In this document: piece after piece, positions 16,605 to 24,935 of the stretch
Position numbering within the stretch: position 1 is the stretch's first letter
Layout of the letters: each line of letters opens with the position of its first letter
Source of the DNA: a virus
IMG/VR virus record: IMGVR_UViG_3300043313_000079
Location: 1-24,935 of that record
Strand: one strand, 5' to 3'
DNA: 24,935 nucleotides
Made by a program: the position numbers and the translations under genes
The notes under the pieces: model-generated
The model's input: only the letters and a program-made list of their open reading frames with translations
What the model was told of the DNA's origin: nothing
Database searches by the model: none

Positions 16605-17351
16605 ATGACAACGACCACTTGCCTGCATTGCGGCAAAGCGCTGCCAACTAAAGATACCAGAGCCGTAATGTTTGGGCGCAGTAGCACCGGCTATCATCTA
16701 CCGTGGATAAGAGCAGGTACACGTAAAACCAAATATTGTTCAGAAAAATGTGGGCGGGATTATAAAAACCCACAGAGAGTGCAATACCGGCAGGCGTGCA
16801 AGACATGCGGCAAAGATTTTGTAGGCTACGGTTCTCAATTTTGCTCAAGAAAATGCGCCAACTCTAGACCAGCCCTCTCTAAGCGGCGTGATCATACTGG
16901 TCTGCGATTTCATAACCTTGTTGCTATCAGAAGTGAGGCACGTCGTAAGAAATCTGGGGTAGCCATTATGTGGTGGCTTTGTCAGTGTGATTGTGGAAAT
17001 CAAAAATGGATGGTTGCCAGCCGGATAGGTAAACAAAAATCGTGCGGTTGCTTAGCGGGCCAAAACTTAAGACAGCCGCGTGGTGAAAATTGGCCGCGTC
17101 ATAAAGTATCGCGAGTTTGCATAATTTGTGATGAAATATTTGAAGGGGAAAAATCAAAGAAAAACACATGCTCACCGGAATGTCATAGAATACAGACACA
17201 TAACCGCAAACTAAGAAATGCCCGAGACTACCGCAATCAAGCTTTAACCAACCCACAAGGAGAAAGACAATGGCTCATAAAAAGCAAACACGAACTGACA
17301 AAGATCAAGCGTCTTCTGAAAGAAGGCAGCAACCCGCCCCCAAAAGCCTAG
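16605..17351 (+). CDS. Acquired AT-rich protein with four zinc-binding modules
   Basis: 248 residues. Module 1: Cys6, 9, 45, 49. Module 2: Cys65, 68, 80, 84. Module 3: Cys126, 128, 130, 147, 149 inside 'TGLRF..LVAI...WWLCQCDCGN...KSCGCL' (98-150), the small zinc domain common in phage homing-endonuclease-like and AP2/HNH-associated proteins. Module 4: Cys172, 175, 189, 193. Modules 1, 2 and 4 share the CxxC...CSxxC form. No HNH nuclease core is visible, so it may be a DNA-binding protein rather than an enzyme. GC content is low (18 of 60 bases in 17101-17160), unlike its neighbours, a sign of transfer. There is no good ribosome site at ATG 16605. Its last 82 bases overlap the next gene. Confidence 0.75.
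   Translation: MTTTTCLHCGKALPTKDTRAVMFGRSSTGYHLPWIRAGTRKTKYCSEKCGRDYKNPQRVQYRQACKTCGKDFVGYGSQFCSRKCANSRPALSKRRDHTGLRFHNLVAIRSEARRKKSGVAIMWWLCQCDCGNQKWMVASRIGKQKSCGCLAGQNLRQPRGENWPRHKVSRVCIICDEIFEGEKSKKNTCSPECHRIQTHNRKLRNARDYRNQALTNPQGERQWLIKSKHELTKIKRLLKEGSNPPPKA
17257..17263 (+). promoter_or_regulatory. Strong ribosome site inside the end of the AT-rich gene
   Basis: AAGGAGA lies six bases before ATG 17270. It decides the start of the 100-residue gene, whose first 82 bases are also read as the end of the AT-rich gene, and suggests this start pre-dated the insertion upstream. Confidence 0.65.
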
Positions 17352-19159: not shown

Positions 19160-19621
19160 ATGGCTGTAACGCGTAAACGGATTGATGAGAACGCCATCAT
19201 CACCGTACTTGCTGAAGACAACCCCAAGCGTGAGGGCAGCGCCGCCCGCGCCCGGTTTGACCTGTACCGTGACGGCATGACCGTCAGGGAGGCCAAGGCC
19301 AATGGCCTGTGGGCCACTGACATTGCCTATGACAGCGACCCCGGCCGCAACTTCATCCAGCTGACCACGCCTGAGGGTGACGACGCCACGCCCGCCCCCA
19401 AGGCCAAGCGGGTCAAGAAGGACAAAGCTGCCAAGAAGGTCAAGGCCAAGGCCAAGAAGGCCAAGGGCAAGACGGCCAAGACCAAGCGGGCCAAGAAGGT
19501 CAAGCAGCCTGAGGTGGAGCAGCCTGAGGGCGGGCCTGAGGCCGGGCTTGAGGCCGGGGTTGACCCTGAGGCCAACGGACCTGAAGGTGACGCTGAGACT
19601 GACGCCATAGCCGCTGAATAG
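19160..19621 (+). CDS. Histone-H1-like tailed nucleoprotein
   Basis: 153 residues from ATG 19160, preceded by AAAGGAAGA. An in-frame ATG at 19094 (TGATG overlap, 22 residues longer) is possible, but its codons do not look like those of neighbouring genes. Residues 1-70 form a compact domain (EGSAARARFDLYRDGMTVREA) seen in small phage proteins. Residues 81-115 are almost entirely Lys, Ala, Val and Arg, like the histone H1 C-terminal tail. Residues 116-153 are acidic (PEG/PEA repeats). This suggests DNA binding or compaction with an acidic self-masking tail. It sits between a helicase and a base-modification enzyme. Confidence 0.72.
   Translation: MAVTRKRIDENAIITVLAEDNPKREGSAARARFDLYRDGMTVREAKANGLWATDIAYDSDPGRNFIQLTTPEGDDATPAPKAKRVKKDKAAKKVKAKAKKAKGKTAKTKRAKKVKQPEVEQPEGGPEAGLEAGVDPEANGPEGDAETDAIAAE
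19381..19580 (+). repeat. Low-complexity coding repeat (AAGGCCAAG-like, then CCTGAGG-like)
   Basis: The Lys/Ala tail is built from short AAGGCCAAG and AAGAAGGTCAAG units, and the acidic end from CCTGAGGCCGG-type units. Such DNA can expand or contract by slippage, so tail length may vary between related phages. Confidence 0.6.
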
Positions 19622-19647: not shown

Positions 19648-20490
19648 ATGCGCGTTGATGACATCTGGGTGTTCGCTAGTAAGCGGCACACCATCTACCT
19701 GAAGCGCGCTGCCGGGGCACCCCCGGAAACGTGGACTGATGACCCCATTCTGAAGACCTACCGCTTCTGCAACATGTACCGAGAACTTGACACCGTGACC
19801 GACTGGTTGCGGGTCAACTGGCGTGAGCCGCACGCTGACCACCCAGACTTGTGGCACGCCTTTGTGGTGGCCCGGCACATCAACAACGTGCCCATGCTGA
19901 CGGCGCTGGGCGGCATCACGCTGCCGTGGGACCCCGGTCACTTCATTGACGTGGGCATGGCCCGCAAGCATGCCGGTGAGCGCGTGTGGTCTGCGGCCTA
20001 CATCATTGGCACCCGCACGCCCGGTGACAAGTGCATCTACATTGCCGATAACGTGCTGACCCCCATGTGGCGCAAGCGTGAGCAGATCAGGCCGCAGCAA
20101 GGTGACACGCTGACCAGTTGGCACATGCAGCTTGGCCTGTGGTTTGGCATGGCCAGCTTCATGGCGGCGCAGGTGATTGCGGATATCAAGCACGCCACGC
20201 CCGCGCTGAAAGAAGCCGGTGACTGGTTTACCTTCTGCGCCAGCGGGCCGGGCAGCCGCCGTGGGCTGAACCGCATCTTTGACCGGCCCAAAGACACCCC
20301 GTGGCGTGAAGATGATTTCAGGCTTAAGCTGCTGGCCCTGCGGCAGGAACTGGCCCCGCTGTTTGCCGCTGAGGGCTGGCCGGTGCCTGACGCCCAAGAC
20401 GTGCAGAACATGCTTTGTGAATGGGATAAGTATGAAAGGACGCGCTTAGGTGAGGGCAAGCCCAAGCAACTTTTCAGGCACGGCGTCTGA
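19648..20490 (+). CDS. Alpha-glutamyl/putrescinyl-thymine pyrophosphorylase-like enzyme
   Basis: 280 residues; GAGGGG precedes the ATG. The family signature is clear near the start: ASKRHTIYLKRAAG, then WTDDPILKTYRFCNMYRELD (residues about 29-48), and near the end MLCEWDKYERTRLGEGKPK. This matches the phage family predicted to displace the pyrophosphate from pyrophosphorylated 5-hydroxymethyluracil in DNA and attach an amino donor, as for the hypermodified thymines of phages SP10 and phiW-14. The helix-hairpin-helix-like centre fits a DNA-glycosylase-related fold. The required kinase and hydroxymethylase are not in the window. It overlaps the GIY-YIG gene by one base. The chemistry in this phage is inference. 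Confidence 0.82.
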   Translation: MRVDDIWVFASKRHTIYLKRAAGAPPETWTDDPILKTYRFCNMYRELDTVTDWLRVNWREPHADHPDLWHAFVVARHINNVPMLTALGGITLPWDPGHFIDVGMARKHAGERVWSAAYIIGTRTPGDKCIYIADNVLTPMWRKREQIRPQQGDTLTSWHMQLGLWFGMASFMAAQVIADIKHATPALKEAGDWFTFCASGPGSRRGLNRIFDRPKDTPWREDDFRLKLLALRQELAPLFAAEGWPVPDAQDVQNMLCEWDKYERTRLGEGKPKQLFRHGV

Positions 20491-20963
20491 TGGGCTGGCT
20501 GGTCTGTGAGCGTGGTCTACCGGGCGTCTATGCCATCATGCACGTGTCAGGCGCGGGCTACGTGGGCGGCTCTGCCCGGTGCGTCTACAACCGGCTGACG
20601 TGGCACAGGCACAGGTTGATCAATGGCTTGCACACGTGCAAGGCGCTGCAAGACCTGTGGTCGGCTACCCAGCCTGATGAGTGGCATGTTGAGGTGCTTG
20701 ATGCTGACCCTGAGCGTGAGACGTTTTGGATGGGCCACCCCAAGGTGCTGCTGAACACCATTAAGGACGCCACCGGCAAGACGCGGCGCTGGTCTGAGGC
20801 CACCAAGCAGAAGATGCGTGACGGGCGCGCCCGGTATCTGGCAGACAACCCTGAGGCCCACCATGCCCTTGCAGAAAAAGCCCGCCACCAGCACCGTGAA
20901 GGCAAGCTTGGGCGGCAAACGTGGAAAGCCCAAGCGCAAGCGCAAGAAGCTGAAGCTGAGTAA
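20490..20963 (+). CDS. GIY-YIG nuclease, homing-endonuclease-like
   Basis: 157 residues from a TGATG junction. The GIY-YIG core is visible: GVY at 12-14, YVG at 24-26, Arg30, a Glu in PERETFW (75/77), and LLN (87-89). A TGKTRRWSEATKQKMRDG segment follows, like the NUMOD-type DNA-binding motifs of homing nucleases, and the tail is basic then Ala/Glu-rich. It may be a free-standing mobile nuclease, or process host or phage DNA. It follows the modification gene directly and uses the same codon style as its neighbours, so it is not a very recent arrival. Confidence 0.83.
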   Translation: MGWLVCERGLPGVYAIMHVSGAGYVGGSARCVYNRLTWHRHRLINGLHTCKALQDLWSATQPDEWHVEVLDADPERETFWMGHPKVLLNTIKDATGKTRRWSEATKQKMRDGRARYLADNPEAHHALAEKARHQHREGKLGRQTWKAQAQAQEAEAE

Positions 20964-20966
20964 GCG

Positions 20967-21434
20967 GTGAACACGTCTGAGTTATGGGACATCTGCCCTG
21001 AATTATGGGGTGCCAACATCTGTAATTGTGGCAAGGCCAATTTCAACTCTAGTTCGTTTGAAGATGGCTATTGTTGTACTAGCTGCCGCCGTGACAATAA
21101 AACGTGTCAATATTGTTATGGGTCTAATGGACGTGTCAGTGAGTTCTGTTCTAACTGGTGTGAGATTTGTGATTACCAATGGCGTCATATGGGGCGTGAT
21201 CGGTGTTGTTATAGATGTGGTGCCCGCTACAGGCAGGCTACAAAATTTTGCTCTGTTGAATGTTATGAGGCCGATGTGCAATTTAGGTATCGGGGGTTTA
21301 TTCATCAGATGAAACAAGAGCGTGAAGATAAAGAACGGGCAGCATGGCGCGCAGGGCGGGCAGCGTGGTGTGAGGCTAGGCGCAAGTATAACGATGTCAG
21401 GCGTATTCTGAGGGAGCATAGTGAACAAGTATGA
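20967..21434 (+). CDS. Cys-rich zinc-finger protein of lower GC content
   Basis: 155 residues from GTG 20967 (weak ribosome site). Sixteen of the first 100 residues are Cys. CQYCYGSNGRVSEFCSNWC (47-65) and CYRCGARYRQATKFCSVEC (81-99) repeat the CxxC...FCSxxC module found in the AT-rich gene at 16605. The C-terminal third is a charged helix (EREDKERAAWRAGRAAW). Base composition is lower in GC (24 of 60 bases in 21061-21120). It is likely a nucleic-acid-binding accessory protein acquired with, or from the same source as, the 16605 gene. Confidence 0.7.
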   Translation: MNTSELWDICPELWGANICNCGKANFNSSSFEDGYCCTSCRRDNKTCQYCYGSNGRVSEFCSNWCEICDYQWRHMGRDRCCYRCGARYRQATKFCSVECYEADVQFRYRGFIHQMKQEREDKERAAWRAGRAAWCEARRKYNDVRRILREHSEQV

Positions 21435-21555: not shown

Positions 21556-21779
21556 TGAGTGACGCTCAACAACTGTCTATCTGGACGGTCTATGATCATC
21601 CGCGTGATTACCCGCACTGCTACGTGGCGCGACAGTTCAGGGGTGAGCAGCCCACCAACAGCATTCTTATCAGCGCTGATCTTGAGGTGCTGCGTGAAGT
21701 TTTGCTGGTGGACATGGGTCTGACGCGGCTTGAGCGTGACGTGTCTGACGACCCGGTGATCTTGGAGACTTGGCTATGA
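21555..21779 (+). CDS. Small hypothetical protein
   Basis: 74 residues from ATG 21555 in TGATG; the GTG just before it is less likely. Strand-rich: WTVYDHPRDYPHCYVARQF, then TNSILISADLEVLREVL. The 'Y-D-HP-DYP-YVAR' opening is often seen in small phage proteins of unknown role. It ends in ATGA with the next tiny gene. Confidence 0.65.
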   Translation: MSDAQQLSIWTVYDHPRDYPHCYVARQFRGEQPTNSILISADLEVLREVLLVDMGLTRLERDVSDDPVILETWL

Positions 21780-23990: not shown

Positions 23991-24020
23991 TTTACATGGG
24001 GGTCGCTTATGACGTATACG
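23991..24020 (+). promoter_or_regulatory. Candidate promoter of the right-end helicase gene
   Basis: TTTACA (23991-23996), an 18-base spacer and TATACG (24015-24020): five of six and four of six bases match the sigma-70 consensus boxes. The 10-mer TCGCTTTACA (23987-23996) is shared with the candidate at 22283. GTCGCTT is repeated 16 bases later. Transcription would begin near 24027, at the foot of a stem-loop. Confidence 0.5.
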
Positions 24021-24022
24021 AG

Positions 24023-24052
24023 ATGTACCGGGGCGCTGGTGCCCCGGCACAT
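24023..24052 (+). other. 5' stem-loop upstream of the helicase
   Basis: ATGTACCGGGGC pairs with GCCCCGGCACAT around the loop GCTGGT: 11 pairs and one A-C mismatch. It ends four bases before the GAGG ribosome site (24056-24059). No clean T tract follows. It could be an attenuator or a 5' cap-like structure that stabilises the message. A 20-codon ORF (24009-24071) covers it and ends in ATGA with the helicase start. Confidence 0.5.
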
Positions 24053-24067
24053 TTTGAGGTTTTCACC

Positions 24068-24935
24068 ATGACCACCACCAAAGTTTTTACCCCTTCACCT
24101 GAGCAGGCCCAGTTTCTTGACTGGATTTCTAACGGCAGCGGTAGCTGCGTGCTTGAGGCGGTTGCCGGTGCAGGCAAGACCACCACGCTGCTTGAAGGCG
24201 TCAAGCGCATGAAGGGCGAGGTTTTTCTGGGTGCCTACAACACCAAGATGGCTGCTGAGTTGAAGCAGAAGCTGGCGGCCATGGGCCTGCCCAACAAGGG
24301 CGCTGACGGCAAGAATGCCGCCACCTTTCACAGCGCGGGCATGAGCGCCCTGCGCAGCGCCAACAAGGCCATTCAGGTCAATGACAAGAAGGTGCGTGAC
24401 ATCGTTGACGGTCTGGTCAAGAGCCAGAGCGGCGTCTTTGCCGTGCGTGACGCTGCTGACGGTGAAGTCACCGCCATTTGCCAGTTGGTTGGCCTTGCCA
24501 AGCAGACCGGCTTTGGCGTTGACAATCTGGTGCCGGTTGTGAAGCCCAGCTACTGGGTTGAACTGATCAACCGCCATGACGTGGCTGACCGCCTGCCTGA
24601 TGACTATCAGGTGGCTGATCTGGTCACCACCGCTGAGCGGGTGCTGGCGCTGAGCAACGCTGACCGTGACACCATTGACTTTGATGACATGTGCTACCTG
24701 CCGCTGTTGCGCCGCCTGCGCTTCTGGCCCAAGGATTGGGTGCTGATTGATGAGGCGCAAGATACCAACGCCGTGCGCCGTGAGATTGCGCGCAAGATGC
24801 TGCGCCCGCACACTGGCCGCCTGATTGCCGTGGGTGATCCCCATCAGGCCATTTTTGGGTTCACGGGCGCTGACAACCAGAGCCTTGATCTGATCCGCAA
24901 GCTGTTCAACGCCAGCACGCTGGCGCTGAGCGTTA
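24068..24935 (+). CDS. SF1 UvrD/Rep-like helicase (5' part; runs off the window)
   Basis: The first 289 codons are present and open to the right edge. The start has GAGG eight bases upstream. Visible motifs: a Q-motif-like start (FTPSPEQAQFLDWI), Walker A AVAGAGKTTT, a motif Ia region (AYNTKMAAELKQKL), FHSAG, Walker B LIDEAQDTN, and motif III AVGDPHQAIFGFTGA. Motifs IV-VI must lie beyond the edge. The layout (short insert between Ia and II, FDDMCYLPL before Walker B) resembles phage Dda/UvrD-like helicases. It is the second SF1 helicase here and differs clearly from the one at 17574, so they probably do different jobs. Confidence 0.88.
   Translation, partial: MTTTKVFTPSPEQAQFLDWISNGSGSCVLEAVAGAGKTTTLLEGVKRMKGEVFLGAYNTKMAAELKQKLAAMGLPNKGADGKNAATFHSAGMSALRSANKAIQVNDKKVRDIVDGLVKSQSGVFAVRDAADGEVTAICQLVGLAKQTGFGVDNLVPVVKPSYWVELINRHDVADRLPDDYQVADLVTTAERVLALSNADRDTIDFDDMCYLPLLRRLRFWPKDWVLIDEAQDTNAVRREIARKMLRPHTGRLIAVGDPHQAIFGFTGADNQSLDLIRKLFNASTLALSV

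Follow-up and report, generated by a model that had tools for sequence, protein, structure and literature searches.

A single gene in a fragment from an uncultured phage lineage raises the question of whether the DNA of that phage carries a hypermodified thymine and, if so, which group the base bears. The window analysed here is an entire IMG/VR record, a fragment of 24,935 bases, and two of its genes are central to what follows:

19648..20490, + strand: HEL, 5-hmdU DNA kinase helical-domain protein (PF18723), 280 amino acids, free-standing, no P-loop
24068..24935, + strand: UvrD-2, the second UvrD-type helicase (PF00580, 8e-24, for ORF 23996-24934), a gene cut by the record end

The helical-domain protein and its family

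The HEL reading frame is intact, running from an ATG at 19648 to a stop at 20490, and shows a clear coding signal, with a GC content of 78% at codon position 3 versus 46% at position 2. Compared with its two nearest relatives, G001 and G002, HEL has dN/dS ratios of 0.165 and 0.171, respectively, the overall range being 0.165 to 0.217. HEL is a real gene under strong purifying selection.

The initial annotation had assigned the protein to the alpha-glutamyl/putrescinyl-thymine pyrophosphorylase family on the basis of two motifs, WTDDPIL.TYRF..MYRELD and CEWDKYERTR.GEG.PK, both of which are present in the intact ORF. The profile search that it had proposed gave a match to PF18723 of 122.8 bits (cut-off 25; E 2.2e-35), with residues 3–269 of HEL covering model positions 4–278, or 275 of the 281 positions. 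A control search of 14 well-known genomes returned zero matches above the cut-off. HEL also matched PHROG 2396, of unknown function (E 1e-48). PF18723, which we take to be the family earlier called alpha-glutamyl/putrescinyl-thymine pyrophosphorylase (aGPT-PPlase) clade 1, now bears the Pfam name HMUDK_hel, "5-hmdU DNA kinase, helical domain". Phage records label orthologues of HEL either way, several as aGPT-Pplase1, in agreement with this renaming. HEL is thus a further, full-length member of an already known family. The clade 1 membership stands, but not the pyrophosphorylase/transferase activity that the older name implied, as the curated name is that of a kinase domain and the ADDT transferases form a separate family (PF18724).

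Comparison with named proteins leads to the same assignment. HEL belongs over its full length to the family of YuA gp14, M6 ORF055, Stenotrophomonas phage Sonora 042 and Salmonella phage Vi01_130c, is about 35%–38% identical to the Pseudomonas and Stenotrophomonas helical-domain proteins and shares their invariant residues; it also has all 22 residues that are invariant in a comparison of 17 HEL proteins. It differs in being shorter (280 versus 320–407 amino acids), in having a gene that does not adjoin the kinase and in coming from an uncultured lineage, in the relatives of which Ino1 is found rather than a flavin-lyase-type gene. An AlphaFold model of HEL is all-helical (pLDDT 91.5), and against the predicted structures of the helical-domain proteins of phiRSL1 and PhiW-14 it gave query-normalised TM scores of 0.90 and 0.82, respectively. 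The same fold is contained in a 637-residue SP10 protein named "5-hmdU DNA kinase", again as a predicted-structure match. Sequence search found no solved homologue, and matches of the model to PDB folds were marginal (best E 0.19). Many of these were HhH DNA glycosylases, a likeness that would suit a base-flipping, DNA-handling role but is only a hint.

According to PMC6449724, a 5-hmdU DNA kinase phosphorylates 5-hmdU after its incorporation into DNA, and other enzymes then modify it further. In YuA and Sonora, the HEL orthologue immediately follows the P-loop 5-hmdU kinase gene (PF18748) and lies near ADDT, with a TS-family (hydroxymethylase) gene close downstream. Among 80 loci fetched with a YuA-type ADDT, HEL was immediately downstream of the kinase in 36 of 56 HEL genes; in loci with Ino1, this was observed for 7 of 20. 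Because its gene order follows that of the P-loop kinase, HEL is read as a kinase subunit. Leaving aside the identity of the final group, it is very probable that HEL is a kinase subunit and belongs to a 5-hmdU pathway, and HEL and the P-loop protein are predicted to form a two-subunit kinase assembly. The widely spread "alpha-glutamyl/putrescinyl-thymine pyrophosphorylase clade 1" labels would be better read as denoting kinase helical subunits.

No near-identical isolate was present in the phage collection searched. A scan of genomes with ADDT for prophages that might indicate a host gave no matches; the corresponding scan with HEL returned only metagenome-assembled bins, in which the matches are probably viral contigs.

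Partner genes in collinear relatives

No kinase, hydroxymethylase or transferase gene occurs within the 24,935-base window, as the initial annotation had correctly stated, though of a truncated record. A search for a kinase inside the window yielded no small P-loop kinase gene, the convincing P-loop motifs being those of the two UvrD-type helicases. The proposal that the partners are absent from the genome was rejected, since the record is cut short and the collinear relatives carry them. HEL is 92% and 83% identical to its counterparts in two relatives. Nearly the whole window aligns collinearly with G001 (79.6 kb) at about 80%–96% nucleotide identity, window position 24935 corresponding to G001 position 21742, and the partner genes of G001 begin 2.6 kb beyond the point where the window ends:

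G001 24374-25456: Ino1, inositol-1-phosphate synthase (PF01658, 4e-35)
G001 25450-26496: ADDT-like DNA transferase (E 0.018, below the Pfam cut-off)
G001 26674-27111: dual-specificity phosphatase (PF00782, 2e-10)
G001 27518-28081: P-loop protein, a diverged 5-hmdU kinase (by pairwise homology)
G001 28277-29332: TS-family gene of the dUMP-hydroxymethylase type (Pfam TS family, 4.5e-18)

The order of cassette genes in G002 is the same, and its ADDT passes the Pfam cut-off (3.5e-7). The kinase of G001 and G002 was missed by the PF18748 profile; it was recognised by reading the ORFs and is linked by pairwise homology alone, the G001 protein matching the kinases of YuA (1.7e-6), Sonora (3.5e-5) and G003 (8.7e-16). 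The TS-family protein of G001 shares 37% identity with YuA gp17, which carries the annotation deoxyuridylate hydroxymethyltransferase. HEL and the kinase gene are not adjacent in the lineage of the window but about 9 kb apart. The ADDTs of G001 and G002 are only 31% identical although their Ino1 proteins are 81% identical, which indicates that the cassettes are mosaic. We infer that such a cassette, expected to start 2.6 kb beyond the end of the record, is carried by the window's own phage.

UvrD-2, the last gene of the window, is itself no modification gene, but it is a synteny anchor that lies between HEL and the cassette in the relatives. Used as bait, it retrieved 30 loci. All seven relatives with 69%–97% UvrD-2 identity had HEL upstream and/or the cassette downstream; ADDT and the phosphatase were present in 7/7, as were HEL, the kinase and TS where the locus was long enough. 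The 23 more distant relatives had neither cassette nor HEL (0/23). Within about 6 kb, G001, G002, L073 and L076 have the full set, namely Ino1, ADDT, the phosphatase, the kinase and either a hydroxymethylase or TET, and the Ino1-type cassette is largely complete in the truncated L074 and L075. Homologues of the hydroxymethylase, kinase and ADDT occur together in G001, G002 and five more members of the lineage, some of them truncated. Ino1 was found in six of the seven close relatives. In the seventh, L082, a radical-SAM/SPASM gene (L082:13277-14197; 7.4e-10) occupies the Ino1 slot beside an ADDT 58% identical to that of G001, and the module that makes the group therefore appears to be swapped between phages.

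These loci bear on what the initial annotation had predicted for the virion DNA. A base derived from 5-hydroxymethyluracil is supported by family membership and by the cassette in close relatives. The partners it had proposed to look for were recovered in part: the kinase and hydroxymethylase in collinear relatives and a radical-SAM gene in L082, while the G001 and G002 cassettes showed no recognisable PLP decarboxylase or flavin lyase. Its amine-linked group is not borne out, as the nearest relatives carry Ino1 instead.

Inositol synthase and the predicted base

An Ino1 alignment (A1) yielded 354 viral stretches, of which 80 were kept and merged at 90% identity into 54 non-redundant loci. ADDT lay within 6 kb in 42 of the 54, 41 recognised by profile and one (L171) by Pfam. 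Other genes were a kinase (33 loci), phosphatase (32), TS (21), HEL (15), FkbM methyltransferase (11) and TET/JBP (10); the profiles behind these counts were seeded with a few Ino1 loci, which match by construction, and the remaining loci are independent. Conversely, none of the 80 M6/YuA-type ADDT loci contained Ino1, and a flavin-lyase-like gene was found in 26 of them and Nmad5 in 11. Viral Ino1 is tied to the 5-hmdU modification pathway. In some Ino1 cassettes, TET/JBP takes the place of the hydroxymethylase or an FkbM methyltransferase is added. TET/JBP occurred mostly in Ino1 loci with no recognised TS-family gene, the pattern to be expected if the two are alternative routes to 5-hmU.

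Pseudomonas phage M6/YuA, whose modified base is 5-aminoethyl-dU, and Salmonella ViI share with the window's relatives the hydroxymethylase, P-loop kinase, helical protein and ADDT. Unlike these phages, the relatives have Ino1 and a dual-specificity phosphatase, and the flavin-lyase-type and Nmad5 genes were not found in them. No description of the Ino1-ADDT cassette, itself a variant form of the pathway for thymidine hypermodification, was found in the searchable text. Inositol on phage DNA bases is likewise undescribed there; the main biochemical papers lie outside that search, and an earlier mention is possible.

Judged from these homologues, the pathway, the order of its steps and the nucleophile would be as follows. 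A phage dUMP hydroxymethylase would convert dUMP to 5-hmdUMP, to be incorporated instead of T. The P-loop subunit, together with HEL as the helical partner that handles the DNA in a 5-hmdU DNA kinase encoded by two genes, would then phosphorylate chosen 5-hmU residues in DNA to give 5-phosphomethyl-dU, and a small nucleophile would take the place of the phosphate through an ADDT-family transferase. In the lineage of the window this nucleophile would most likely be inositol or an inositol derivative: Ino1 would convert glucose-6-phosphate to inositol phosphate, from which the adjoining dual-specificity phosphatase may release inositol. The prediction that the final base carries an inositol group stands at about an even chance. 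Much the same confidence attaches to its general form, in which phages of many lineages, including that of the window, would use Ino1, a phosphatase (dual-specificity or HAD) and an ADDT branch devoted to this step to put inositol, or an O-methylated or altered inositol, on 5-hydroxymethyluracil in DNA, the product being a cyclitol-linked base.

The transferase step rests on structural likeness. The PDB name of 8z2n is that of a glycinyltransferase with 5-phosphomethyl-dU as its substrate, and for this reason the separate ADDT is taken to be the transferase. The model of the G001 ADDT matched 8z2n with a probability of 1.00 (E 9.3e-4); the fold of this glycinyltransferase, gp46/PUGT (8z2m, 8z2n), is shared at 16% identity. 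On the ADDT tree, two changes suffice to separate the Ino1-linked rows from the others, L082 accounting for one of them, compared with a mean of 30 in shuffled trees, none of 500 being as low as two; the tree carries a long-branch warning, and it undersamples ADDT diversity because its non-Ino1 rows were fetched with YuA-like baits. As the Ino1-linked ADDTs form separate branches, their nucleophile may differ from that of PUGT. ADDT systems are able to form O-linked products, as in ViI. PMC6449724 names 5-aminoethoxymethyl-dU.

Possible but on balance doubtful is a base derived from an amino acid, like those of M6 and ViI, in which case ADDT would attach an amino acid and Ino1 and the phosphatase would serve further decoration or another purpose. 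In favour of this, ADDT stands for amino acid:DNA transferase, and the glycinyltransferase just described is among the solved structures of the family. Two observations count directly against inositol: L082 pairs a related ADDT with a radical-SAM gene, and the nearest cultured relatives of the G001 ADDT, actinophages at about 25%–29% identity, have TET-like, kinase and ADDT genes and no Ino1. Two of these, Kozie and Phelemich, have a flavin-oxidoreductase-like gene in the cassette; the suggestion that actinophages lack Ino1 because their hosts supply inositol was dropped, as this gene points to an amino-acid route. Against an amino-acid base stand the cassettes of G001 and G002, with no recognised PLP decarboxylase or flavin lyase, the separation of Ino1-linked from YuA-type ADDTs on the tree and the association of Ino1 with ADDT at most of its loci and at none of the YuA type.

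Alternatives also exist for HEL. It is improbable that HEL is itself the pyrophosphorylase/transferase that installs an amine-linked group: the old family name, the aGPT-Pplase1 records and a weak profile similarity to ADDT (hhalign E 1.3e-4, probability 54%) would suit this, but the curated family is a kinase domain, HEL gene order tracks the kinase and separate ADDT genes are present alongside HEL in the same cassettes, so that the transferase slot is already filled. Still harder to credit is the idea that the phage has ordinary DNA and that HEL is an orphan or a relic. The window does contain HEL with none of its partners, and in this lineage HEL lies apart from the kinase gene, but the gene is under strong purifying selection and the cassette is kept in 7/7 relatives with the same flanking helicase. 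The location of the cassette outside the window, the 9 kb between HEL and the kinase and the failure of PF18748 to detect the latter also count against a kinase subunit, which is nevertheless the preferred reading of HEL.

If inositol is the group attached, cyclitols would join amino acids, amines and sugars as groups used in phage DNA hypermodification, viral inositol synthases would be DNA-modification genes rather than auxiliary metabolism, and a specific prediction testable by mass spectrometry would follow for a cultured phage, Caulobacter phage Cr30. The Ino1 of Cr30 is about 40% identical to that of G001 and is encoded close to an ADDT (1.3e-52). The Cr30 locus differs in having a TAGT-like glycosyltransferase gene between the two, and its ADDT falls on the branch of TET/JBP-type cassettes. 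The base composition of Cr30 was not found in the literature searched. About 6 kb from its Ino1-ADDT genes, Cr30 encodes a homologue of the CBASS inhibitor Acb3 (L050:21855-22655; 1.8e-68).

Other arrangements were observed around Ino1. In L059 (126-1883), Ino1 and an FkbM methyltransferase are fused in one 585-residue ORF within a modification cassette, an arrangement that would fit an O-methylated inositol. In L060 and L061, a HAD phosphatase gene lies between Ino1 and ADDT. In L146, L151, L142 and L049 (Stenotrophomonas phage IME-SM1), Ino1 is beside QueC, QueD, FolE and a QueE-like radical SAM gene, and in Stenotrophomonas Menderavirus it adjoins folE, queC and queE. The proximity to deazaguanine-synthesis genes is a hint that a second kind of modified base may also bear inositol.

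Other reading frames of the window

Several other ORFs of the window were noted. A Cys-rich, HNH-endonuclease-like ORF (16605-17351; phrog_374, 1.7e-7) lies in a patch of lower GC content to which nothing in G001 corresponds and is probably a mobile insertion. Directly 3′ of HEL, the ORF at 20490-20963 is weakly endonuclease-like (phrog_13862, E 0.023); it is found in G002, is missing from G001 and is possibly a homing endonuclease gene. It is followed by a Cys-rich ORF (20967-21434) in a region with low GC content and an unusual GC skew (0.255), outside the G001 alignment. Immediately 5′ of HEL, the ORF at 19160-19621 encodes a small protein with a Lys/Ala-rich, histone-H1-like tail, the N-terminal domain of which is retained ahead of HEL in G001, G002 and L073.
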